This document shows positions 20,225 to 44,806 of a stretch of DNA of 64,000 nucleotides, one piece after another; the stretch's first letter is position 1; every line of letters begins with the position of its first letter. The stretch lies in NCBI GenBank assembly GCA_947629865.1, contig CANRFJ010000002.1, forward strand, positions 1 to 64,000. Direction: 5' to 3'. The position numbers and the translations under genes were made by a program. Source of the stretch: an uncultured Lachnospiraceae bacterium. Its GTDB lineage: Bacteria; Bacillota; Clostridia; Lachnospirales; Lachnospiraceae. Below the pieces are notes generated by a model. It did no database searches, was not told where the DNA came from, and worked only from the letters and a program-made list of their open reading frames with translations.

Positions 20225-21319
20225 TTAACCGGCCAGTTCCCCCAATACTTTCATCAGGGCGTCGTTCTGCTCCGGCAGCATAAAGCAGAAGCGGAAATAC
20301 TTGTCGTTCAGAAAGGGGAACGTAGAGCAGTCGCGTATCATTAAATTCCGGCGGATAGCGGCCTCAAAAACGTCAGAAGATGTTAAATTCTCTTTTAATA
20401 TTTTTACAAGGACGAAATTGGCGTGGGGCTGATAGGGCTGAAAGGCTGGACTGGCCTCCAGCGCCGCAAGGATGCGGCGTCTCTCCCCGCTTATGAGCTC
20501 TCTGGTTTGACGGATATATTCGTCGTCTGTAAACATAATCTCGCCCGCGATGGCGGCCAGTGAGTTGATCGTCCAAGGGTTTTTGCACTGCTCGATCTTC
20601 TGAAGCAGATCGCGGCTGCCGCAGACGGCATAGCCGAGACGCAGGCCAGGAGCGGCGAAAAATTTGGAGATCCCTCTCAGAATCACGATGTTATTATAGT
20701 ATTCAGTCAGCGGAATGGCTGTGACGTCCTCCACATCTTCAGTAAATTCCACATAGGTCTCATCTACCAGCACAGTGATGGATCGGCGCTTGCAGTAGTC
20801 TAGTATCTCCCGCATCTGAGCGTGCCGTATTACAGAGGAGGTAGGGTTGTTGGGGTTGCATAGGATTAGCAGATCTACGTCGCGGGACAGCTCCTCGGTG
20901 AGGGCGGCCGTGTCGAGGCAAAACTCGCTGGCCTCCGTCAGGCTGAAGTAGTGGGAGCGCCCCCCGCCCATAGCGACCTCTCTCTCGTATTCGGAATAGG
21001 TAGGGCCCACGATGAGCGCTTTGTCCGGATGCGTAATCCGGATAAAGAGGGAAATCAGCTCAGTCGATCCGTTTCCCACTACGATATTTCGGGGATCTGT
21101 ATTGGCATAGCGGGCGATGCAGCGGCGCAGGGAGGTGTATTCCCGGTCGGGATAGGTGCTGATGGCGTCGATGTGTTCCGCCAGCGTCTTGCGCAGGGCG
21201 AATGAAATGCCCAGAGGATTTACATTGGCGGAAAATTGGATAATATCTTCTTTTTTTATGTTATAGGTCCGTTCGATCTTCTCCAGATCGCTGCCGTGAA
21301 AATGTTCTTTTGGCTTCAT
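20225..21319 (-). CDS. PLP-dependent aminotransferase, threonine-phosphate decarboxylase (CobD)-like
   Basis: The 364-residue fold-type I PLP enzyme opens with the CobD-like HFHGSDLEKIERTYNIKKEDIIQFSANVNPLGIS. It contains GNGSTELI, LCNPNNPTS, LVDETYVEF and the PLP lysine in GISKFFAAPGLRLGY. CobD makes aminopropanol phosphate for cobalamin, while close relatives are histidinol-phosphate aminotransferases. No cobalamin or histidine genes lie nearby, so the substrate is open. GGAAGGAG before 21319 marks the start. The 27 residues possible upstream are not family-like. Confidence 0.8.
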   Translation of the reverse strand: MKPKEHFHGSDLEKIERTYNIKKEDIIQFSANVNPLGISFALRKTLAEHIDAISTYPDREYTSLRRCIARYANTDPRNIVVGNGSTELISLFIRITHPDKALIVGPTYSEYEREVAMGGGRSHYFSLTEASEFCLDTAALTEELSRDVDLLILCNPNNPTSSVIRHAQMREILDYCKRRSITVLVDETYVEFTEDVEDVTAIPLTEYYNNIVILRGISKFFAAPGLRLGYAVCGSRDLLQKIEQCKNPWTINSLAAIAGEIMFTDDEYIRQTRELISGERRRILAALEASPAFQPYQPHANFVLVKILKENLTSSDVFEAAIRRNLMIRDCSTFPFLNDKYFRFCFMLPEQNDALMKVLGELAG

Positions 21320-21491: not shown

Positions 21492-24400
21492 ATGAAGGAA
21501 AAGGTACTATCTCTGGCAAAGGGAAATTTCACATATGAGGCGCCCGGCCTGGTACTCACACCAGACCGGCTGGAGCTCTCTGTGGTGGCGGGCGAGAAGA
21601 AGAAGGAGAGGTTTACCCTGAAGAACCGCCGGGGCGCCAGAATGAAGGGTTTCGGCTCGACAGAGGCGACGGAATTGAATTTCCTTCCGGTATTCCACGG
21701 AGAGGAAAATGAGTTGGAACTGGAGATAGACGCCGGAGAACTGGTGCCGGGGGAGACGCTGCAGGGCGAGATCCATCTGGTGACGGACTGCGGGGAAGCC
21801 GAACTCCCATATCATATTTCCGTGGTTTCACCCCGTCTGGAGGACGAGCGCGGGGTAGTGAGGGACTACTATGCCCTTCAGGAGAGGATTCAGGAGAATC
21901 CGTCAAACGGGTTAAAACTTTTTCTGGATCCGAACTTTGAGGAGGTATTCCTGTATAGAGATGAGAGCGGTCGGCTTCTTTACCGACAGCTGACGAAGAA
22001 AAATACAAAGCTGCGCAGTATGGAGGAATTTCTGGTGGCCATGGGCAAAAAGCCGGCCATTCGCTTTGAGATCGTGAGCGGGGCCCTGAGCCGGGACGGG
22101 GAGCTTGCCTTTGAACTGGACGGGGAGGATATTCAGGAGACGGTGACTGTCCGTGTCAATACATGGGGGAGCGCGGGGATCCGTGTGAGGAGCACGGCGG
22201 ATTTTTTGGAGCCGGATGTACATGAACTGTGGACCGACGATTTTGTGGGGGGAGAGGCCGGTCTGCGCTTTACCGTGCGGGCAGACCGGATCGGGACGGG
22301 ACGGCGGTTTGGCAGCCTGATCTTTGAGTCGGACTATGAGACACAGGAGATTCCCGTCAGCGCCCACAATGCCGAGGGGGCGCAGCAGAGGAAGGTGGCG
22401 AGGGCCAAAAAGGCGGCGTCGGCCATGCTGCTGCGGACGTATCTGGCCTATCAGGAGGGACGGCTGCCCAAATCGGAATTTCAGGAAATGCTGCGGCGCA
22501 GCCGGAGCGTGATCGAGAAAATCAGCGAGCGGTACCGTCTGCCCATGATGGGATATACGGCGGTTATCCTGGAGGACGCAAAGGGAATACTGGATCTGTA
22601 CCAGGAGACAGAGGCTCTTACGCTGCCACAGCTGGAGGAGGAGAGAGAGCTGCCGGGCCATGCGGCGGCCGGGAAGGATGCGGCGGCGAAGGAGAAACTG
22701 CTGGCGGAGATAGAAAATTATATCCTGATTGAATATATTAAATATCTGAATAAAGGCAAGGAGAAGGAGAAGGAGAGAGAGCGGATTGCCCGACTTCTGG
22801 AGAGCTACAGCGACAATGGCTACAGCAGCCTGTCCCTGTTCTGCCTGAGGCTGCGCACGGACAGTCGCTATCAGTCTGTCCGTATTCGGGAAAGGGATAT
22901 CCGCGAGCAGCTTGAGCAGGGCTCGAACAGCCCGCTTCTCTACTCGGAAATGATACAGGTTTACCGGCAGGAACCGGGGCTTGTCACCGCGCTGGACAGA
23001 GTGACGCTCGCCGCGGTAAACTATGGGTTAAAACAAGATTTAATAAATGAAGAAATCGCCATTCGGGTTAGTTTTCTGGCGGAGAGGATGCCGGATATGG
23101 ATCCGGTTGCGTTTCACGTGCTCGAACTCATTTATGAGAAATTCCACATGGAGGATACGCTGCACAGTATATGCAGTCTGCTGATTCGAAATGAGCTTCG
23201 GGAGCCGGAGTACTTCTCCTGGTTTGCCAGAGGGGTGCAGCAGCATCTGAGGCTGACGGATCTGTATGAGTACTATATGTATACGATGGATACGGAGACT
23301 ACGTTTTCCCTGCCGGACTCGGTACTCTCCTACTTCCAGTATGAGAATCATCTCAATGACTCCTGCAAGGCGTTTCTCTATGCCTATATTGTCCGGAAAA
23401 GAGGCGAGAATCAGGAGTGGTTCCGGCTGTACGGCAGTCAGATACGCGAATTTGCGCTGGAGCAGCTCTCCCGTAAGCGAATCAGCGAGGATCTGGGGAC
23501 AATCTATGAGGGGCTGTTTCTCAGGGACAATATTCAGGGGGCGGTGGCATACGAGCTCCCGCAGGTTATGTTTGCGAGGCGTCTGGTCTGCCGAAACAAA
23601 AGGATTGAAGCGGTCGTAGTGATTCATTCGGAAATGAGGGAGGAGGCCTTCTATTCCCTGAAGGACGGGGAGACGGTAGTGCAGATATTCACCCCGAATT
23701 ATCAGTTGTATTTTGTGGATTGTGACGGAAATTACTGCACGGGGACTGTGGACTATACGATGCACAAACTCCTCAACCTGGAGGAGTTTGCGCCCGCCTG
23801 TTACGAGCATGGCTCGGAGGATACGCAGCTGTTGGCATATCTGGCGGTGGAGGCGCTGCGGAGTCCGCGCCTGGACGGGACGAGGGCGGAGCTTATGCTG
23901 CGGGCGGCAAAGCTGCACTGCTTCCGCGACTATACGAACGGGAAGATCCTGCTGAGGCTCTATGACTATTGCAAGGAAAAGAGAGATATGGCAATGCTCT
24001 TAGAGGTACTGGATGAAATCGTGCCGGAGGCAATCAAGAGGGAGCGCATCGGAGAGGTGGCCACGGACTGCATCTACCAGGGAATGTATGAACGGGCGGA
24101 CGCCATGCTTATGCGCTATGGTTTCACGGGCTGTGAGAAAAAGGCGCTGGCGATGCTTCTGCAGGAGAAGATACAGAAGTTCCACGGCGAGTTTTCCCCG
24201 CTTCTTGTAAAATGGGCCTATCATCTGTACCGCGAGCGGTTCTATGAGAGGGGCGCCATGCAGTACCTCCTCAAATATTATATGGGAAATACAGAGACTC
24301 TGACGGATATTTACAAAAAATGCCTACAGAATCCGGAGATCGTCATTGACGACGGCTCCAAAGAGAGGCTGCTGGGACAGGTACTCTTTACCGGAGTGGA

Positions 24401-25103
24401 TCCGGCTCCTTATGAGACGCTGTTTCTGGAATATTTTCAGGACGGAAACAATCGGGTGTTAGTCAAGGCGTTTTTATCCGTCATGGCATACCAGTACATC
24501 GCAGGGAGGCTGGAGCTGTCGAAGGAGGTCTTTGCAAAAATTGAGAAAGAGGCCTTCTATGAAAAGGAAACCGTGATGGTGCTGGCGGCGCTGAAGTATT
24601 ACAGCGGGCGCAGCGAGTTTACGGAGAGGCAGAGGGATTTTATTGAGCTGAGCCTGGAAAACTGCGCCAGCGAGGGGCAGATATTTACCTTTATGAAGGA
24701 ATTTGTCGGCAAACTGGCCGTGCCCTATGAAATCGAGAATACGGTACTGCTCCAGTACAACAGCGGCACGGATAAGGGAGTGTTCCTCTTTGTGAAAAAT
24801 CAGGAGGGAAAATTCGAGGGACAGCCGATGAAACGGATTTTTGACGGCTTTTTCACCAGAGAGCTGCTGCTCTTTGAGGGAGAGGAGAAGACCTGCTATA
24901 TCTATGAGGAGGAGACGGACGAGCGGACAGAGGACATGGTGATCCGGCGGCCGGAGGGCTCCGGTTTTTCACCGGGCTTCTTCAGGCAGGTGAACGATAT
25001 GATCCGGTCGAGAGACCGGGGTGACGAAAAACAGTATGAGGCGCTGCGGCGTCAGTACGAGATCCAGCGCGGAGCGGCGGCAAAGCTCTTTACGCTGCGA
25101 TAG
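21492..25103 (+). CDS. Giant DUF5717-like protein: Ig-like domains plus helical repeats
   Basis: The 1203-residue protein has no signal peptide or clear membrane segment, so it is probably cytoplasmic. Residues about 15-115 look like a BACON/Ig-like beta-domain (LELSVVAGEKKKERFTLKN to LPYHISVV). A second similar domain occurs near 205-295 (FGSLIFESDYETQEIPVSA). From about 300 to 1050 the protein is alpha-helical, with TPR-like repeats. The C-terminus returns to beta-strands (GVFLFVKNQEGKFEGQPMKRIFDGFF). The length and neighbours match DUF5717 proteins of Lachnospiraceae, identified from memory. It starts a four-gene operon with an Hsp70-like ATPase. A scaffold or client-binding role is inference. 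Confidence 0.7.
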   Translation: MKEKVLSLAKGNFTYEAPGLVLTPDRLELSVVAGEKKKERFTLKNRRGARMKGFGSTEATELNFLPVFHGEENELELEIDAGELVPGETLQGEIHLVTDCGEAELPYHISVVSPRLEDERGVVRDYYALQERIQENPSNGLKLFLDPNFEEVFLYRDESGRLLYRQLTKKNTKLRSMEEFLVAMGKKPAIRFEIVSGALSRDGELAFELDGEDIQETVTVRVNTWGSAGIRVRSTADFLEPDVHELWTDDFVGGEAGLRFTVRADRIGTGRRFGSLIFESDYETQEIPVSAHNAEGAQQRKVARAKKAASAMLLRTYLAYQEGRLPKSEFQEMLRRSRSVIEKISERYRLPMMGYTAVILEDAKGILDLYQETEALTLPQLEEERELPGHAAAGKDAAAKEKLLAEIENYILIEYIKYLNKGKEKEKERERIARLLESYSDNGYSSLSLFCLRLRTDSRYQSVRIRERDIREQLEQGSNSPLLYSEMIQVYRQEPGLVTALDRVTLAAVNYGLKQDLINEEIAIRVSFLAERMPDMDPVAFHVLELIYEKFHMEDTLHSICSLLIRNELREPEYFSWFARGVQQHLRLTDLYEYYMYTMDTETTFSLPDSVLSYFQYENHLNDSCKAFLYAYIVRKRGENQEWFRLYGSQIREFALEQLSRKRISEDLGTIYEGLFLRDNIQGAVAYELPQVMFARRLVCRNKRIEAVVVIHSEMREEAFYSLKDGETVVQIFTPNYQLYFVDCDGNYCTGTVDYTMHKLLNLEEFAPACYEHGSEDTQLLAYLAVEALRSPRLDGTRAELMLRAAKLHCFRDYTNGKILLRLYDYCKEKRDMAMLLEVLDEIVPEAIKRERIGEVATDCIYQGMYERADAMLMRYGFTGCEKKALAMLLQEKIQKFHGEFSPLLVKWAYHLYRERFYERGAMQYLLKYYMGNTETLTDIYKKCLQNPEIVIDDGSKERLLGQVLFTGVDPAPYETLFLEYFQDGNNRVLVKAFLSVMAYQYIAGRLELSKEVFAKIEKEAFYEKETVMVLAALKYYSGRSEFTERQRDFIELSLENCASEGQIFTFMKEFVGKLAVPYEIENTVLLQYNSGTDKGVFLFVKNQEGKFEGQPMKRIFDGFFTRELLLFEGEEKTCYIYEEETDERTEDMVIRRPEGSGFSPGFFRQVNDMIRSRDRGDEKQYEALRRQYEIQRGAAAKLFTLR

Positions 25104-25121
25104 TTCAGGCGCGGAGTGCGA

Positions 25122-26360
25122 ATGGAGGATATGATGGAGGCAAAAGAGACGGAGGAGAGGCCGGTGTCCGGCAGAACCCTGCTGCTGGGGTGCGATCTGG
25201 GAGACGCAAAAACCCAGCTGGCCGTATATAACAGAGAACAGAGGGAGCCGGTGCTGGTGGGACAGACGGAGGAGAATCCGGACGCGCTGTTGGATACCGC
25301 AATCTATCTGGAGGGCCAGCCCCCTCTGGTGGATTTTCTTCCCCGTATCCGGCGGGGTGAGGAGATTTCGGTGCAGGGCAGACATTCCAATCCGGTCAAT
25401 GTGCTGGCGTATTATTTTCGCAAGCTTCTGTCCATGACGAGGCAGCAGTATCCCTCTGAGACCATTAAGCAGTTGGTGGTGACGGTTGAGGAGCAGTCCC
25501 CCGAATATATCCAGTTAATCTATGATGCGCTGGCCGTGCTCGGCATTGGACGCGACCGGTCGCTCGTGATCAGCCACAAGCAGAGTTATCTGTACTATGT
25601 GCTGTATCAGAAAAAGGAGTTGTGGATCAATGATGTGGGACTTTTTGACTATGACGGAAGTCGCCTGAAATACTTTCAGATGCAGGTTGACCGTCAGCGC
25701 AAGCCGGCGCTTGTGGGAGTGACGGAGAAGGATTTTTCGGACGCAATGGAGCCGGATGGCGGTGATGAGCATCGGGGCGCGTTGTTTGAAAATATCGCGC
25801 ACGGGGCGATCCACAAGCAGATTCTGTCCGCGCTCTATATGACGGGCGAGGGCTTTGAGGGGGAGTGGGCGGATCCTGTCTTCCGGAGACTGTGCGTCGG
25901 GCGGCGTCTCTTTCGCGGCAGAAATCTGTATGTCAGCGGGGCCTGCTATGCGGCCAGAGAGACGGGGGAGACGGCGAGGCTGTCGGACTATATCCTGCTG
26001 GACGACGAGATGATCTCCTCCCATATATCGGCGGTTCTGTATACGGACGCGAAGGAGCAGGAGGTCGTTTTTGCCAGGGCGGGGACTCCCTGGTATCAGG
26101 TGGACGAGGAGCTGGACGTCATACCGGACGGGGAGACGGAGCTGGAGCTGAAGGCGCAGAACCTTTTTACAAGGGAGGAGAGGCGTTTTATTCTGGATTT
26201 GGAGCCCGTGTCGGGGAAAAGCGCCAGACAGTGTCGCCTGGGCGTGAGAATCCGCTTTGAAGATGTGCGCACCTGTGTCGTCACGATACGGGACAGGGGA
26301 TTCGGGGAGATGTTCCCCACTTCAAACCGCGTCTGGGAGAGGACGCTGGTGATAGACTGA
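25122..26360 (+). CDS. Hsp70/actin-like ATPase (DUF5716-like)
   Basis: The 412-residue protein appears to have an actin/Hsp70 (ASKHA) ATPase fold. LLLGCDLGDAKTQLAVY at 20-36 matches the phosphate-1 loop of Hsp70. LFDYDGSRLKYFQM resembles phosphate-2, and RGRNLYVSGACYAARE resembles the adenosine motif. The last 110 residues are beta-rich (GETELELKAQNLFTREERRFILDLEPV), like a small substrate-binding domain. The start is uncertain between 25122, 25131 and 25134. GGAG before 25122 is used. It lies 18 bp after the DUF5717-like gene. Function is unknown. Confidence 0.7.
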   Translation: MEDMMEAKETEERPVSGRTLLLGCDLGDAKTQLAVYNREQREPVLVGQTEENPDALLDTAIYLEGQPPLVDFLPRIRRGEEISVQGRHSNPVNVLAYYFRKLLSMTRQQYPSETIKQLVVTVEEQSPEYIQLIYDALAVLGIGRDRSLVISHKQSYLYYVLYQKKELWINDVGLFDYDGSRLKYFQMQVDRQRKPALVGVTEKDFSDAMEPDGGDEHRGALFENIAHGAIHKQILSALYMTGEGFEGEWADPVFRRLCVGRRLFRGRNLYVSGACYAARETGETARLSDYILLDDEMISSHISAVLYTDAKEQEVVFARAGTPWYQVDEELDVIPDGETELELKAQNLFTREERRFILDLEPVSGKSARQCRLGVRIRFEDVRTCVVTIRDRGFGEMFPTSNRVWERTLVID

Positions 26361-26392
26361 CGGAGTGAGCATGGAGATGGAGGTGTCCTGAG

Positions 26393-27160
26393 ATGTTTAT
26401 TTTGTGCAGGGACAGGGTGGCGAAGAAACCGTATACGCTGCCATTTTCCGAGAAAAAAGTATATTCGCTGGAGGAGCTGTGCTATTATATCTACAACAAC
26501 ATCTACAGCATAAATGAAGATTTTTTCCAGCAGTCTCTGGCGGTGTGGCTGCGCGATGAGACGGGGTTGCCTGTGCTGGCGAAGAAGATCGGGGATATGC
26601 TCCGCTCAGAGCCCTCGCTAAAGGATCTGGTAGTGACGCTGCTGTGCGGCTGCGATTACTATCGGGAGGATGAGATCCGGAACCTTGTGAAGGTGATGGA
26701 CGGCATCGCCAATCTGCCGCTGTATAAGAAAAAGAAGATCAAGGCGGACAATTATCTGCGGGCCGGACGATATGGAAAGAGCCTGTCCGAGTACCGGAGG
26801 CTTCTCCACGGCAGTTTTGCCGTGAATTTTACGACGGAGGAGTACGGGGATATTCTTCACAATCAGGGAATTGCCCACTTTTACACATCTTCCTTTGCCG
26901 AGGCTGAGAATGATTTTAAGGAGGCCTATGTGCGGAACCATGAACCGGATTCGCTGCGCCATTATCTGTGGCTGCTCCTGATGCAGGGGCGGGAGAAGGA
27001 TTTTGAGGCGGAGGCTGTATCCTTCGGCATGGCGCCGGAGGAGGTGAGGGCGGCCAGGAGCGAGTACACCAGAGCGGTGTCCCAGTGCGCGGTGCCGGAA
27101 CCGTCGGAGGATGATATTGAGAGATATAAGGAACAGTTGAAAAAGGCATTTGCGTGTTAG
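26393..27160 (+). CDS. Helical TPR-like protein of the DUF5716/5717 operon
   Basis: The 255-residue protein has no signal peptide. The first 100 residues are an unrecognised domain (FILCRDRVAKKPYTLPFSEKKVYSLEELCYYIYNN). The rest is helical with TPR-like pairs: KADNYLRAGRYGKSLSEYRRLLHG, then GDILHNQGIAHFYTSSFAEAENDFKEAYVRN, whose alternating small and large residues are typical of TPR helices. I do not know a named family. It is the third gene of the operon, with a GGAGGTG start, and is likely a partner of the ATPase. Confidence 0.7.
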   Translation: MFILCRDRVAKKPYTLPFSEKKVYSLEELCYYIYNNIYSINEDFFQQSLAVWLRDETGLPVLAKKIGDMLRSEPSLKDLVVTLLCGCDYYREDEIRNLVKVMDGIANLPLYKKKKIKADNYLRAGRYGKSLSEYRRLLHGSFAVNFTTEEYGDILHNQGIAHFYTSSFAEAENDFKEAYVRNHEPDSLRHYLWLLLMQGREKDFEAEAVSFGMAPEEVRAARSEYTRAVSQCAVPEPSEDDIERYKEQLKKAFAC

Positions 27161-27180
27161 TGGCGGAAAGGATGGCTGGC

Positions 27181-28410
27181 ATGGGATTCCATTTTTTTAG
27201 AAAGCGCCGGTTGGAAAAAGAAGATGTCTCCAAAGAGGCGCAGGATATCGAGAATACCGCAGAGGCTCAGGCAGCAGACCGGGAGGAGGACTTCGAGGCG
27301 CTGGCGGGGGGGCCTGTGCGCGTCGAGAAGGAAAAGGTGGATATCCAGAACGACAAGGCCAGAATCGCCTATCTGGAGCGGCTGCATGAGTCCATTCTGG
27401 AGGCGAAGGCCCAGTGCGGGGACATAAAGACGGAATATGCCCAGGTGACTTCTTATCTGAGGGATATACAGTTAATCGACCAGGCGCCTCCGGAGGAGAA
27501 GCAGACGCTGTACGGGGCGGCCAGACGGCTTGTGGAGCTGACGGAGGAGCGGCGTCGTCTCCGGCGGCAGAAATATAAGATAACCGACGCCCAGAAGCGC
27601 GCCATAGAGAATTATGAGACCGTGGTGCCCGCAGATATCAGCAGGTGGCAGGAATACGAGGATTACCAGGTGAAGATCAAAAACGACCTGCGCCAGCTTG
27701 GGAGCGAGAAGAATCTTCTGCTGGCGGACAAGCAGGATATCATACGCAGACAGGGAACGCTGAAGACGATCGGCAAGTGCCTGCTGGCGGTGCTAATCGC
27801 CATCGGGGCCATGCTCGCGGCGCTTTTGTTCTGCTTTAAGGTGGATATCACCGTTCCGTTTGTGGCGGCGGTGGGCTTTGCCTTTGTGGCGGCGGCCATC
27901 ATTCTGAACGAGGCGAGGAAAAACCGCATCGATATGGTGATTACGGAGAAAAAATGCAATCGGGCTGTCTTTCTCAGCAACAGGGTTAAACTGAAATATT
28001 TTAATAACGTGAGGACGCTGGATTATCTCTGTCACAAGTACCGGGTGCGCAATGCGACGGAACTGGATTTTGTGTTCAGCCAGTACCAGAAGGAAAAGAG
28101 GGAGTGGGCCAGACAGCGTGAGAATACGCTGCAGATTCACGAGAACAGCCAGACCATCATACAGGAGCTGCAGCGCCTCGGCATAAAGGACAAGGAGATC
28201 TGGCTGACGCAGGCGGACGCGCTGGTAGAGCCAAAGGAGATGGTGGAGGTGCGCCACGACCTGAATGTACGCCGTCAGAAGCTGCGCGAGCAGCTGGACG
28301 GAAATACCGGCATTATGGAGGAATGTCTGGAGGAGATGGAAATGATTCGGGACAAAAAGCCGGAATATGCGGCTGAAGTCGAGAGGATACTCAGCCAGGG
28401 GCCGGTATAA
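27181..28410 (+). CDS. Coiled-coil membrane protein of the DUF5716/5717 operon
   Basis: The 409-residue protein has two adjacent membrane segments near 196-245 (TIGKCLLAVLIAIGAMLAALLFCF and VPFVAAVGFAFVAAAIIL). Long charged, coiled-coil-prone helices flank them on both sides, so both ends face the cytoplasm if the hairpin topology holds. The N-terminus GFHFFRKRRLEKEDVSKE is basic, then acidic. I do not recognise a family. The start at 27181 follows AAAGGATGG. Gaps in the operon are all under 35 bp. It may anchor the other three proteins to the membrane, which is inference. Confidence 0.7.
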   Translation: MGFHFFRKRRLEKEDVSKEAQDIENTAEAQAADREEDFEALAGGPVRVEKEKVDIQNDKARIAYLERLHESILEAKAQCGDIKTEYAQVTSYLRDIQLIDQAPPEEKQTLYGAARRLVELTEERRRLRRQKYKITDAQKRAIENYETVVPADISRWQEYEDYQVKIKNDLRQLGSEKNLLLADKQDIIRRQGTLKTIGKCLLAVLIAIGAMLAALLFCFKVDITVPFVAAVGFAFVAAAIILNEARKNRIDMVITEKKCNRAVFLSNRVKLKYFNNVRTLDYLCHKYRVRNATELDFVFSQYQKEKREWARQRENTLQIHENSQTIIQELQRLGIKDKEIWLTQADALVEPKEMVEVRHDLNVRRQKLREQLDGNTGIMEECLEEMEMIRDKKPEYAAEVERILSQGPV

Positions 28411-28435: not shown

Positions 28436-29065
28436 ATGAAACCGGAGATCGATTATACGCTGTACCTGTGCACAGACCGCAGGCTCATGACGACCGACAC
28501 GATCGAGGAGTCGGTGGAACTGGCCGTCAAGGGCGGCGTTACGGTGGTGCAGCTGCGGGAGAAGGATTGCAGCTCCAGGGAGTTTTATGAGATGGCCGTG
28601 CGGGTGAAGGAAATAACGGACGCCTACGAGGTTCCCCTTCTCATCAATGATCGGGCGGATATCGCCATGGCGGTGGGGGCCGACGGGGTTCATCTGGGAC
28701 AGGACGATCTGCCGGTGCAGGCGGCCAGAGGACTGCTTGGCTCCGATAAGATTATAGGGGCCACGGCCCATACGGTGAAAGAGGCGGTGCGGGCGTGGAA
28801 ATCCGGCGCCGATTATCTGGGGGCGGGTGATGTGTTCGGCACGTCCACCAAGCAGGACGCCCGGCGCCTGTCGCTGGAGGAACTGACGGAGATCTGCCAA
28901 TCGGTGCCGATTCCCGTGGTGGCTATCGGCGGAGTCAGGGCGGACAATATCGCACGACTCAGACCGACAGGCGCAAAAGGGGCGGCTGTCATCTCCGCCG
29001 TCGTCGGACAGAAGGATATAACAGCCGCCACAAGAGAACTTATTTCAAATTTTCAAGAAGCATAA
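28436..29065 (+). CDS. thiE: Thiamine-phosphate synthase
   Basis: It joins hydroxymethylpyrimidine diphosphate and thiazole phosphate to form thiamine phosphate in the cytoplasm. The 209-residue TIM barrel carries VVQLREKD, PLLINDRADIAMAVGADGVHLGQDDLPV, the GTSTKQ phosphate loop and VVAIGGV. It lies 25 bp behind the coiled-coil gene and may be cotranscribed with it. No other thi biosynthesis gene is adjacent, and no TPP riboswitch was seen. Thiamine pyrophosphokinase lies at 52 kb. The end overlaps the convergent PHP gene by 26 bp. Confidence 0.93.
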   Translation: MKPEIDYTLYLCTDRRLMTTDTIEESVELAVKGGVTVVQLREKDCSSREFYEMAVRVKEITDAYEVPLLINDRADIAMAVGADGVHLGQDDLPVQAARGLLGSDKIIGATAHTVKEAVRAWKSGADYLGAGDVFGTSTKQDARRLSLEELTEICQSVPIPVVAIGGVRADNIARLRPTGAKGAAVISAVVGQKDITAATRELISNFQEA

Positions 29066-34354: not shown

Positions 34355-35473
34355 ATGATTGAGGGGGATAAGATGGGAAGGGCGGAGGACACGCTGATTT
34401 TCATTGATGAGATCCAGGCCTATCCCCATCTCCTTACAATGTTGAAATTCCTCCGTGATGACAATCGTTTTACTTATATCGCCAGCGGCTCTTTGCTCGG
34501 CGTGACGCTTTCGGAGACGACTTCTATCCCCATAGGCAGTATCCGTAAAGTCCGCATGTTCCCATTGGATTTTGAAGAATTTCTTTATGCAAACGGTGTG
34601 AATGAGTTTGCTGTCAGTGCGCTGCAGAAGAAGTACGAGGCGCAGGAATCGCTTGATGAGGCGATGCACGGGAAGATGATGGATTTATTCAGGCGTTACC
34701 TCTTAATCGGCGGTTTGCCGGCGGCGGTCAATGTCTATCTGGAGACGAAGAATATCCAGCCCGTGCGCGGGGTTCAGCGGGAGATTCATGATTACTATGC
34801 CGCAGACGCCTCGAAGTACGACGCGGCGCGCAGATTAAAGATCCGTCGGATCTACGATCAAATACCTTCCAATCTGGGAAACAAAAAGAAGCGCGTGGTC
34901 GCACAGCGGATCGAGGGCAGAAAGGGCAGTACCTTTGCGGACTATGAGGACGAGTTTGCATATCTGATCAGCGCCGGTATTGCACTGAACGTGCAGGCCA
35001 TCTCTACACCGACTTTTCCTCTGATAGAATCCTCAGGCAGGAACCTGTTGAAACTGTACCTGAACGACGTGGGTATCCTCACGTCCATTTTGTACGGCAA
35101 TAATATCCGCGCGGTTCTGGACGACGAGAAAAGCATCAATCTGGGTTCTGTGTATGAAAGCGTAGTCGCCAGCGAACTTATCGCACACGGTCACACTCTC
35201 TACTATTATGATAACCGCAGCAGGGGTGAGGTCGATTGCCTGATTGATAATTACGGCAGTCTCTCCGTCGTCCCCATCGAAGTGAAGTCCGGCAAGGATT
35301 ACACAGTCCACAGCGCACTGAATACTTTCGTAAAGAACGACGATTATCATGTAAAAAAAGCGTTTGTCCTCTCCAATAACCGCGAGATCACAACGAAGGG
35401 GAAAATCACAAATTTGCCGATTTATGATGTGATGTTCTTTGGCGCGGAGGGTGACGGGGACGGCACGCTGTGA
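34355..35473 (+). pseudogene. 5'-truncated AAA ATPase with DUF4143 domain
   Basis: The open frame encodes 372 residues but begins close to the Walker B motif (DTLIFIDEIQAYP). The roughly 90-residue N-terminal part with the Walker A P-loop, present in intact AAA_14/DUF4143 proteins, is missing. A stop lies in frame at 34319-34321, and no P-loop appears upstream in any frame I checked. The DUF4143 C-terminal half looks intact, including a nuclease-like RGEVDCLIDN...VPIEVKSGKDY. A weak start may allow a truncated product, but ATP binding should be lost. The break lies right after the AT-rich acetyltransferase gene. Confidence 0.75.
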
Positions 35474-35511
35474 ATCTATATATTTCCAATCGAAAAATTT
35501 TTACAAAACAA

Positions 35512-35538
35512 TTAGCACTCACCTCTTGACAGTGCTAA
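35512..35538. promoter_or_regulatory. CIRCE operator (HrcA site) of clpB
   Basis: TTAGCACTC, a 9-nt spacer and CAGTGCTAA differ from the CIRCE consensus TTAGCACTC-N9-GAGTGCTAA by one base. The operator covers the -35 box of the clpB promoter, so HrcA would block transcription. Confidence 0.9.
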
Positions 35539-35554
35539 CAATGAGTGTTATATT
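35526..35554 (+). promoter_or_regulatory. clpB promoter
   Basis: TTGACA, 17 bp and TATATT lie 41 bp before the start codon and are interleaved with the CIRCE element. Confidence 0.85.
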
Positions 35555-35594
35555 CTATGTAGAACAGAACTCTGTTTTGAAGGGAGTGAGAGGC

Positions 35595-38186
35595 ATGAAT
35601 ATTACAAAATTTACCCAGAAATCGGTGGAGATCTTGAATAACCTGGAAAAAATTGCCTATGATTTTGGCAATCAGGAGATCGTGCAGGAGCATCTTCTCT
35701 ACGGGATGCTCACGGTAGAGGACAGTCTGCTGGCGCGGCTGTTGCAAAAGATGGAGATAGATCCGGCCGTGTTCCAGGCGCAGGTGGAGGGGCTGTTGAA
35801 TAAGCGTCCCAAGGTAGAGGGCGGACAGGTGTATATCGGGAGCGAGCTGAATAAAGTCCTGGTCTATGCCGAAAATGAGGCGAAGGCTATGGGAGATGAA
35901 TATGTCTCCGTGGAGCATCTTTTTCTGAGCCTGTTGCGCAAGCCGTCCTATGACGTGAAGAAGTTGTTGAAGGAATTTCAGATAGACAGAGAGCGGTTTT
36001 TGCAGGCGCTCTCAATGGTGCGGGGGAACCAGAAGGTGACGAGCGACAATCCGGAGGCCGTATATGAGAGCCTGGAGAAATACGGGACGGATCTGGTAAA
36101 GAGGGCAAGGGAGCAGAAACTTGATCCGGTCATCGGGCGCGATGCGGAGATCCGCAATATGATTCGGATTTTGTCCCGCAAGACGAAAAACAATCCGGTG
36201 CTGATCGGAGAGCCCGGCGTGGGCAAGACCGCCGTTGTAGAGGGATTGGCTCAGCGTATTGTACGAGGCGACGTGCCGGACGGCCTGAAGGATAAGCAGA
36301 TATTTGCGCTGGACATGGGGGCTCTGATTGCCGGCGCCAAGTATCGGGGCGAGTTCGAGGAGAGGCTGAAAGCTGTGCTGGAGGAGGTCAAGGAGAGCGA
36401 CGGGCAGACGCTTTTGTTCATAGACGAGCTGCATACGATCGTGGGGGCCGGCAAGACGGACGGAGCGATGGACGCCGGAAATCTTCTCAAGCCGATGCTG
36501 GCGAGGGGCGAGCTCCACTGTATCGGAGCCACGACGCTCGATGAGTACCGCATGTATATTGAGAAGGACGCGGCGCTGGAGCGGCGGTTCCAGCCGGTGA
36601 TGGTGGAGGAGCCCACGGTGGAAGATACGATTTCTATTCTTCGGGGCCTGAAAGACCGCTACGAGGTATTCCACGGGGTGAAAATAACCGACGGCGCTCT
36701 GGTGTCGGCGGCCGTGCTGTCCGACCGCTATATTTCCGACCGCTTCCTGCCGGACAAGGCCATTGATCTGGTGGACGAGGCCTGTGCACTCATAAAGACG
36801 GAACTGGATTCCCTGCCCACAGAACTGGATGATGTGCAGCGGCGCATCATGCAGATGGAGATAGAGGAGGCGGCGCTTAAGAAGGAGACGGATCGGCTGA
36901 GCCGTGAGCGCCTGGAGAATCTCCAGAGAGAACTGGCGGAACTCAGAGAGGAATTTGCCGGGCAGAAGGCGAGATGGGACAATGAAAAATCCGCAGTGGA
37001 AAAAATCCACGAGCTGAAAGCGCAGATTGAGGATACGAACAACCAGATTGAGGTAGCCAAGCACAATTACAATCTGGAAAAGGCCGCGGAATTACAATAC
37101 GGTGCGCTCCCCAGGCTTCAGCAGCAGCTTCATCAGGCAGAGGAGGATATGCAGGACGGCGGGCAGACTATGGTGCATGAGAGCGTCAGCGATGAGGAAA
37201 TCGCCAGGATTATTTCCCGCTGGACGGGAATACCGGTGGCTAAACTGACGGAGTCGGAGCGGAACAAGACGCTTCATCTGGACGAGGAGCTGCACAGGCG
37301 TGTGATTGGACAGGACGACGGCGTGACGAAAGTGACCGAAGCCATTATCCGCTCGCGGGCGGGGATCAAGGATCCGGGCAAGCCCATTGGTTCCTTTTTG
37401 TTCCTCGGGCCGACCGGCGTGGGTAAGACGGAACTGGCCAAGAGTCTGGCCGAATGTCTCTTTGACAATGAGAGCAACATGGTGCGCATTGACATGAGTG
37501 AATACATGGAAAAGTATTCCGTGTCACGCCTGATCGGTGCGCCTCCCGGATATGTGGGCTACGAGGAGGGAGGCCAGCTGACGGAAGCGGTGCGCAGGAA
37601 GCCCTACTCGGTGGTTCTCTTTGATGAGATTGAGAAGGCGCATCCGGACGTGTTCAACGTCCTTCTCCAGGTGTTGGACGACGGACGGGTAACGGATTCA
37701 CAGGGGCGGACGGTGGATTTTAAAAACACCATTCTGATCATGACATCGAATCTGGGCGCGGAGTATCTGCTGGAGGGAATCAATGAAGACGGAGAATTGT
37801 CCGAGGAGAGCGTAGAGGCCGTGATGGATCGGCTGAAGGGCAGCTTCCGGCCGGAATTTCTGAACCGCCTCGACGAGATCGTGATGTTCCGTCCGCTGTC
37901 CCGACAGAATATCCGCAGTATCATCGACCTTCTCCTGCATGAGGTCAATGAGCGGATTGCGGACAGGGAACTCTCCCTGACGCTGACGGAGGGGGCGAAG
38001 GACTATATAACCGAGCAGGCCTATGATCCCGCTTATGGGGCAAGACCGCTCAGGCGGTATCTGCAGAAAAATGTGGAGACGCTGCTGGCAAAGAAAATTT
38101 TGGCGGACGAAGTCCACGCCGGACAGGTATTGGTAATGGACGCCGGGCCGGAGGGACTGTTTATTCCGGAAAATCCTCCAGGTTAA
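35595..38186 (+). CDS. clpB: ATP-dependent disaggregase ClpB
   Basis: This cytoplasmic Hsp100 hexamer threads aggregated proteins through its pore, normally with DnaK. The 863-residue protein has the full set of parts. These are an N-terminal Clp_N double repeat (1-150), AAA1 with GEPGVGKT near 200 and LLFIDELHT, a long middle coiled coil (about 410-520) that separates ClpB from ClpC/ClpA, AAA2 with GPTGVGKT near 605 and [16 protein letters not shown], and a C-terminal domain. The start after GGGAGTGAGAGG matches the family N-terminus [14 protein letters not shown]. Transcription is controlled by the CIRCE element upstream. Confidence 0.97.
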
Positions 38187-44694: not shown

Positions 44695-44700
44695 AAAACC

Positions 44701-44806
44701 ACTATATGACTGACGGAAAAAGTGGAGATATACCACATGGAGTATAGTAGCATGAAAAGCCGACCGTCTGGGCTGCACGCCTGGGCTGCGGCTTTTTCCA
44801 TTTTTT
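44701..44806 (+). ncRNA. Candidate leader RNA or small RNA upstream of pflB
   Basis: From the predicted start near 44701 the transcript runs into an imperfect hairpin, AAAAGCCG/CGGCTTTT at 44755-44796, followed by TTTTT and TTTTTT. This gives a possible transcript of about 100 nt or an attenuator ahead of pflB. A 30-codon open frame (44737-44829) spans the hairpin. No known riboswitch class is recognised. Confidence 0.4.

Follow-up and report, generated by a model that had tools for sequence, protein, structure and literature searches.

The locus described here raises the question of what four adjacent genes with an Hsp70-like protein among them are, and what they are derived from. The genes lie in a 64,000-nucleotide stretch of DNA from an uncultured Lachnospiraceae bacterium (contig CANRFJ010000002.1 of assembly GCA_947629865.1; hereafter the window) and are called S, A, T and C in their order, S belonging to the Pfam family DUF5717 and A to DUF5716. 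An earlier note, made from the letters of the sequence, had read them as an operon encoding an ATPase, a large repeat scaffold and a membrane tether, which would suit a membrane-bound chaperone or assembly platform. The follow-up analysis suggests that the operon is a reduced derivative of a machine with several Hsp70s, and that it has kept only a dead paralogue.

By its predicted structure protein A is an Hsp70. The AlphaFold 2 (AF2) model, built with 47 sequences (predicted local confidence, pLDDT, 89.5; predicted template-modelling score, pTM, 0.84), has an actin-like nucleotide-binding domain followed by a beta-type substrate-binding domain (SBD-beta), the architecture by which homology to Hsp70 is recognised, and ends in a beta-rich tail. 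A Foldseek search of the PDB placed DnaK best (E 3e-16). The alignments to DnaK span both domains and, counting gaps, have 496-560 columns; the 50 matches listed are all Hsp70-family chains by description, including Sse1 and the Ssz1 of the ribosome-associated complex (RAC). The whole-chain template-modelling (TM) scores are moderate, 0.40-0.53 by query length, which we put down to the placement of the domains. A profile of 47 A proteins also matches the PDB DnaK (E 7e-6) over its first ~130 positions, the N-terminal third, and A from the longer operons described below matches both DUF5716_C (E 2e-33) and HSP70 (E 1.8e-14). Pfam HSP70 (PF00012) does not pick up the A of the window at values up to E 0.1, and the protein is not listed in the HSP70 search of its own genome; both S and A score above the Pfam cut-offs for DUF5717 and DUF5716, of which the latter has one match in the genome.

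A longer form of the operon is found in other families of the order, where 32 loci were collected (L055-L066 and L094-L113; L, G and f numbers are our handles for loci, genomes and families, the own family being f1, which we take as Lachnospiraceae from the titles of the named contigs). Their usual order, as far as the contigs permit, is Ig - solenoid - H1 - X - A - H3 - H4 - T, in which H1 is the first Hsp70, X a GrpE fusion, H3 another Hsp70 and H4 an Hsp70 joined to a von Willebrand factor A (vWA) domain. In one set of long-operon proteins Pfam HSP70 matches H1 at E 6e-78, H3 at E 2e-63 and H4 at E 8e-92 and X ends in GrpE (E 7e-11); the GrpE match recurs in 22 of 23 X proteins, the HSP70 and vWA matches in all 19 H4 proteins, and H1 rows across nine loci are 58-85% identical to the first. 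H1 is present in 28 of the 32 loci, those without it being L065, which stops at a contig end, L066, where Ig, solenoid and A only are found, and L105 and L111, which hold just the first part of the operon. Furthermore, H4 and T were not called in L103, and L107 and L113 have gaps or inserted stretches. The immunoglobulin-like (Ig) protein of ~400 amino acids (aa) and the solenoid (Hel) of ~900 aa together correspond to the two parts of DUF5717; they are separate genes in 24 loci, a single protein of 931-1006 aa stands in their place in L096, L097, L099 and L104, and L106 has a solenoid without a called Ig gene. A membrane coiled-coil protein (TM) lies upstream in 12 long-operon loci and C lies downstream in five (L069, L070, L096, L097 and L099), neither being seen in the inspected loci of families f11 and f24. 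Family f5 often splits the long operon, with Ig and solenoid kept together and H1 elsewhere (L105, L111 and 14 f5 genomes), and in family f4 the H4 gene is formed by two overlapping open reading frames (ORFs; L055:340-2384 / L069:13340-15384), either a sequencing error in the draft or decay near the family that lost H4. That relatives have so much fuller an operon, with a GrpE fusion and three Hsp70s that are intact, alters what the four window genes are.

The comparison with these paralogues shows what A has lost. The catalytic residues of Hsp70s include K70, E171, T199 and D201 (E. coli DnaK numbering), besides the GGGT loop and the TTN. Among the 14 positions checked in window A, D8, D194, G197 and one adenosine glycine are kept and the other 10 are replaced (T11D, T12A, N13K, K70L, E171H, G196D, G198S, T199R, D201K and G339E), so that of the earlier note's ATPase with Hsp70-type phosphate and adenosine motifs and a beta-rich tail the fold and the tail stand, and the motifs are remnants. 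Across 64 A rows (41 from short operons and 23 from long ones, 58 distinct loci) K70, D201 and N13 are never kept, T199 is kept once and E171 three times, whereas the same positions are kept in 28/28 H1, 22/22 H3 (21 for N13) and 19/19 H4 proteins. These counts leave out six long-operon A rows (a mis-sorted H3 from L097 and five second fetches) and four second fetches of H3 or H4; the 41 short-operon rows include six second fetches (35 distinct) and L066 from outside the family, L045 and L046 come from one genome, and the profiles failed to find the divergent A and T of L097, so that neither is included.

The nucleotide-binding domain has also been cut. Subdomain IIB is the part of an Hsp70 that is clamped by GrpE and that closes the adenine pocket, and it lies in the stretch from D194 to the adenosine glycine, which is 143 aa long in DnaK, 132-152 aa in the 23 rows of long-operon A and 137 aa in L066, but 60-93 aa in all 40 own-family A rows (34 distinct), with 66 aa in the window. 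Judged by these lengths, subdomain IIB is missing in all 40. It would therefore seem very unlikely that A is an ATPase, given the 10 replacements at 14 checked positions and the loss of IIB. The segment that follows the adenosine glycine has medians of 171-199 aa in A, H1 and H3 against 312 in DnaK and is thus too short for a helical lid, whilst in H4 the vWA domain occupies this position; a linker of the VLLLD type was found in 0/29 long-operon A (A2), 0/28 H1, 0/25 H3, 0/20 H4 and 1/41 short-operon A rows. The long form is an unusual chaperone arrangement in itself, in that a single operon encodes three Hsp70s without lids, one of them fused to vWA, together with a GrpE fusion.

The distribution of the intact paralogue H1 follows the family boundary closely. 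H1 and DUF5717 were compared, by reading their two lists side by side, in the same draw of 196 genomes of the order (200 requested, completeness 90), with a threshold for H1 of E 1e-100; H1 was found in 58 genomes, none of the own family and all carrying DUF5717. Of the 59 genomes with DUF5717 that belong to other families only G051 lacks H1, and of the 35 that belong to the own family all do. The H1 gene is a close neighbour of the solenoid gene, at most 1.5 kb away, in 44 genomes; in the other 14, all of f5, it is elsewhere (47 kb away in G389, on other contigs in 13), so the order of the long operon is not absolute. The window's own genome has one full-length match to PF00012, which is DnaK (809 bits), and two partial matches over the cut-off (61 and 30 bits). 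In trees of a chosen subset of rows, rooted on DnaK as the sole outgroup, A is sister to H3 (support 1.0 and 100), the A proteins of the family form one clade, and the sister of that clade is A of family f4 (L055), which still has H1, X, H3 and C. The simplest history would be a duplication of a true Hsp70, followed by decay of the active site in one of the copies at a time when the machine was still complete; in the family the active copies and GrpE would later have disappeared from the locus and A would have been shortened.

The four genes are under purifying selection. Measured against L117, the closest of the named relatives, whose A is 85% identical, the ratio of nonsynonymous to synonymous substitution (dN/dS) is 0.078 for S, 0.080 for A, 0.062 for T and 0.057 for C. 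All four are thus real genes under constraint, and A, with a value like that of its neighbours, is not decaying. The ORFs are those of the earlier note, separated by gaps of 18, 32 and 20 bp, and its operon holds. A scan of named contigs gave 69 loci, 28 labelled Lachnospiraceae, two Eubacteriaceae (L124 and L139) and the others by genus or higher group; cultured carriers include [Clostridium] clostridioforme, [Clostridium] asparagiforme, [Clostridium] citroniae, Clostridium porci and Fusibacillus kribbianus. The order is S-A-T-C in 33 of these loci, S-A-T in 32 and cut or fragmentary in four (A-T-C, S-A-T-T, S-S-S-A-T and S-A); S-A-T is kept as far as the contigs extend, T follows A in 68, the remaining locus ends at a contig edge, and in none of this survey are the genes scattered. 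On neither of the two counts named in the earlier note, the fold of A and the gene order, is its reading refuted.

Within the family the operon is core, and as far as sampled it is confined to the order. DUF5717 is present in 118/120 family genomes of at least 95% completeness (117/119 genera; G955 and G959 lack it), in 46/61 genomes of the genus and order, counting the own genome, in 94/196 of the order, in 20/393 of the class (own-family genomes throughout), and in 5/299 of the phylum at E 0.001, of which four are above the cut-off and all of the own family; these draws overlap. A weak DUF5716 match in G332 was discarded, as the profiles found no gene of these families there. The operon is usually single-copy in a family genome. 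One genome of the window's genus, G006, has two differing copies (L045 and L046), one with C and the other divergent, with no C detected on a contig that stops 1.1 kb after T.

Table 1. Genes of the operon and its immediate neighbours in the window.
Feature	Position	Strand	Length	Assignment
S	21492..25103	+	1203 aa	Pfam DUF5717_N E 1e-197, DUF5717 E 4e-54
A	25122..26360	+	412 aa	Pfam DUF5716_C E 5e-96; degenerate Hsp70
T	26393..27160	+	255 aa	TPR-like; TPR_16 E 5e-5, under cut-off
C	27181..28410	+	409 aa	Coiled coil and two-helix membrane hairpin; candidate membrane tether
Aminotransferase (PF00155)	20225..21319	-		Pfam E 1.4e-52; open frame extends to 21400; divergent neighbour
thiE (thiamine phosphate synthase)	28436..29065	+		Pfam TMP-TENI E 6e-67; 25 bp after C

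The partners of A (Table 1) bear out the descriptions first given to them from the translations. S was described as an Ig-like plus helical-repeat protein, and its AF2 model (residues 5-1203, pLDDT 87, pTM 0.61) has two Ig-like beta sandwiches followed by alpha-solenoid blocks with beta insertions; against the PDB it gives partial matches only, to Ig-like domains of ciliary central-apparatus proteins and to solenoids, with TM-scores of at most 0.16 by query length among the matches listed. T, called TPR-like, has a conserved N-terminal region and a few repeats resembling tetratricopeptide repeats (TPR), its Pfam TPR matches all being weak and below the cut-offs; the ~390-aa TPR protein of the long operons is a longer form of T, and a 387-aa relative shows clear TPRs. 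C has no match in a Pfam scan, and a hydropathy scan of the four proteins finds a membrane stretch in C alone, at about residues 193-246 (the query carried one extra N-terminal residue), in agreement with the membrane hairpin proposed for it. The candidate membrane tether is often present, C being detected in 34 of the 69 named loci, but it is not constant: C is absent from 27 with at least 1.5 kb present after T, and eight cut loci are undecided.

The flanking genes speak of descent. An aminotransferase, matched by motif, lies upstream in 28 loci, 27 of them with it on the opposite strand (families f1, f6, f7, f11, f22 and f24; 99 loci had 1.5 kb to inspect), and valS lies downstream in 22, 19 within 1.5 kb (f1, f4, f7 and f22; 93 loci had 3 kb), some loci in both counts being second fetches of one contig. 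Since both are shared across families the synteny is old, which is consistent with vertical descent, and the aminotransferase is taken as an old neighbour and not proposed as a component of the machine. Beside the operon a thiE motif was met within the own family alone, at 20 loci; thiE is possibly co-transcribed with the operon but is lineage-specific and lies outside the machine. Functional hints from such neighbours (aminotransferase, valS, purA, purF and thiE) were set aside, these being housekeeping genes that vary by lineage, and were read as inherited synteny. A link with sporulation was dropped, spoIIAB lying 3-8 kb from the operon in three loci only (L069, L070 and L062, of three families), and for a phage origin there is one weak PHROG match, of unassigned function, for S and none for A, T or C. 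Heat-shock control was also rejected: no CIRCE operator is found at the operon, a search with up to three mismatches gives one in the window, at 35512, and the exact matches in 5 of 185 loci are none of them at the operon. The CIRCE of the window (35512-35538, one mismatch) is at the start of a ClpB-like AAA+ ORF (35439-38186), so that translation probably begins further downstream and HrcA probably controls the gene. A ZMP/ZTP riboswitch (RF01750) is present at 44696-44780 on the + strand, with 60.6 bits against a gathering threshold of 39.

The reading that we favour, which could well be right but which we put forward tentatively, is that the operon represents what the Lachnospiraceae have kept, in reduced form, of a dedicated Hsp70 machine, and that in it A would be a partner-binding subunit, free of the nucleotide cycle, on a scaffold of S and T. 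In related families the locus generally encodes the Ig protein, the solenoid, three Hsp70s with intact catalytic residues (one with vWA), the GrpE fusion, A and the TPR protein, in some with a coiled-coil membrane protein at one end. In the own family H1 is missing from the sampled genomes, neither H3 and H4 nor the GrpE fusion is left at the locus, the Ig and solenoid parts make up a single protein, S, and A also lacks the subdomain that GrpE and adenine contact. Having lost the ATP cycle, such an A would be a static subunit with the shape of an Hsp70, and partners, be they S, T or a client, would be held by its SBD-beta and nucleotide-binding domain; by analogy, A most likely binds its partners as Ssz1 does, without a nucleotide cycle. 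S and T would form the scaffold, which C, where present, would tie to the inner face of the membrane. The product would be an ATP-independent platform for holding or docking, near the membrane where C is present, which may pass clients to the DnaK of the cell.

A number of observations do not sit easily with this reading. D8, D194 and one adenosine glycine persist in 39/41, 32/41 and 41/41 short-operon A rows, so residual nucleotide binding by A is possible, and at the ~10-14% identity between A and DnaK single alignment columns may shift by a residue or two. The Ig and solenoid parts form one long protein in three long-operon loci (L062, L094 and L108), so the fusion is not special to the reduced form, and with C absent from the 27 loci noted above a membrane tether cannot be general. 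G051 (L066) lies outside the family and has Ig, solenoid and A without H1, so either the loss occurred at least twice or A works alone for another reason. Within the family H1 is the one paralogue that was searched for genome-wide, the absence of H3, H4 and X being read from the loci and from the HSP70 search of the own genome.

It would seem unlikely, but is worth weighing, that A is a co-chaperone acting on the cell's DnaK, a regulator or exchange factor like Sse1/Hsp110, and that S, T and C merely localise it. The 50 structural matches listed include Sse1 and Ssz1, DnaK is the only full-length PF00012 match of the own genome, and as the long operons own a GrpE such a role could become useful once GrpE was lost. 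However, A has neither subdomain IIB nor a lid, whilst Sse1, in the available part of PMC8476630, contacts Hsp70 through its nucleotide-binding domain and SBD-alpha, and as A arose alongside GrpE and three Hsp70s it probably did not start out as a regulator of DnaK. Somewhat less likely again is a stress or conflict system, Ter-like or GAP1-N2-like, in which an array of Hsp70s and a scaffold would sense stress or invaders and build structures beneath the membrane. The sole H1-like Hsp70 (E 1e-90 or better) in a draw of 243 class genomes, which held few or none of the long-operon genomes, sits in a Ter locus, and in a small tree, with this one genome for the Ter loci and DnaK as sole outgroup, one Hsp70 of that locus is sister to H3 plus A (support 96). 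GAP1-N2 systems with HSP70, GrpE and TPR proteins are described in the accessible text of PMC7159879, and among long-operon proteins H3 (E 4e-11) and H4 (E 2e-7) match an unnamed PADLOC candidate, PDC-M61B, and X and TM weakly match ZorA/ZorG (E 0.001). Set against this, a gene found in 118/120 family genomes, mostly as one copy and in old synteny, has the pattern of a core gene and not a sporadic one, the scanned window and long-operon proteins have no Ter or GTPase match, and PADLOC gives no match for the four window proteins.

The first reading of the locus, in which A would drive a membrane-bound chaperone or assembly platform with ATP, has become very improbable. It can still draw on the Hsp70 fold and on the mostly retained D8, D194 and adenosine glycine, but K70, E171, T199, D201 and the GGGT loop are gone from nearly all DUF5716 rows and are retained by H1, H3 and H4, and IIB is deleted in the family. 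The idea that A is an actin-like protein, filament-forming or structural and with no relation to chaperones, is the most remote of those considered here: an actin-superfamily fold without the residues of the Hsp70 cycle would fit it, but A retains an SBD-beta of the Hsp70 type, is sister to an intact Hsp70 and has Hsp70s as its best PDB matches.

Should the reduced-machine reading hold, the Lachnospiraceae, which are abundant human gut bacteria, would keep an engine-less chaperone machine as core equipment, three active Hsp70s and their exchange factor having been lost and a dead Hsp70 without IIB left as the fixed hub of a giant Ig-solenoid scaffold, a proposal that we make with slightly more reserve. 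Bacteria would then have a nucleotide-independent equivalent of the atypical Hsp70s of eukaryotes. The scaffold gene is near-universal in the family, yet two of its Pfam families are still named as DUFs; DUF5716 and DUF5717 now gain an origin, as an Hsp70 and its scaffold. Furthermore, the loss of catalysis in an Hsp70 can be traced here, as fuller forms survive in other families, and the reading gives a clear prediction for which one purified protein would suffice.

That DUF5716 and DUF5717 lack a known function agrees with the literature searched, from which subscription papers were mostly absent: in the available texts the two families were met only in PMC8115291, by its title an anticancer computation, with nothing on function and no link to an Hsp70-GrpE operon. 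Searches on operons with several Hsp70s, on Hsp70-GrpE-vWA and Ter-Hsp70 operons and on Lachnospiraceae signature proteins likewise gave nothing on this system in the texts available, and the accessible part of a paper on DnaK duplication (PMC11019930) does not mention it.

Among known systems, DnaK-DnaJ-GrpE resembles the long operons in its Hsp70 and GrpE homologues; the long operons differ in that a J-domain was not detected, lids and VLLLD linkers are absent and there are several Hsp70s per operon, and the window operon differs further in having no intact Hsp70 and no GrpE, its four proteins giving no Pfam match to DnaJ or GrpE. A hidden J-protein was looked for and rejected, there being no HPD in the A, T, C, Ig, Hel, X, TM and H1 rows or in window S; the letters HPD do occur in 11/120 S, 8/54 H3 and 1/23 H4 rows and were not taken as a J-domain. 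The closest likeness to A is yeast Ssz1 of the RAC, which in the part of PMC8476630 available has little or no hydrolysis and no SBD-alpha and forms a stable complex with its partner: both have an Hsp70 fold, an SBD-beta without a lid and, as would follow for A from its residues, no productive ATP cycle. Ssz1 nevertheless binds ATP and pairs with a J-protein, whereas A has lost IIB and most nucleotide-contact residues and stands among HPD-less partners.

The long operon as a whole can be set beside two further systems. In the accessible text of Kaur et al. 2020 (PMC7159879) a second theme of the GAP1-N2 GTPase systems has HSP70 and GrpE with an FNIII protein fused to DnaJ or TPR, and the operonic HSP70, GrpE, beta-sandwich and TPR proteins and the membrane links are shared with the long operon. 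The differences are that the operon has no GTPase in Pfam scans (no match to any GTPase in the window operon and one long-operon protein set, GAP1 not being looked for with a model of its own), that it has three Hsp70s and a dead one, and that it is near-universal in its family.

Finally, the Ter locus mentioned above (L186:1325-13804, in G204 of another family of the class) runs directly into three Hsp70 genes of 496-532 aa. Pfam finds TerD in three of its proteins, one also with TerB and one with a TerF-type vWA, and TerC in one, others being TerD-like by eye. Two of the Hsp70s flank a 476-aa protein without a match, which was considered as a relative of GrpE and not shown to be one. No L186 protein matches DUF5716_C at E 0.01, and the A profile matches the Hsp70s of the locus at 68-116 bits. 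It has TerD, TerB and TerC where the long operon has Ig, solenoid and GrpE, and neither TerD nor TerC was found in Pfam scans of the window operon and the scanned long-operon proteins. Both encode a trio of short Hsp70s in a single operon, and both include a vWA protein as well as one in the membrane; the Hsp70s of L186 are the closest Hsp70 relatives found outside the order, and in the small tree they group among those of the Lachnospirales-type operon. Ter proteins are viewed, in the part of PMC7824862 available, as sensing and sub-membrane components, and as a lead we suggest that arrays of Hsp70s may be common to Ter-type stress systems and to the machine from which the window operon would be derived.

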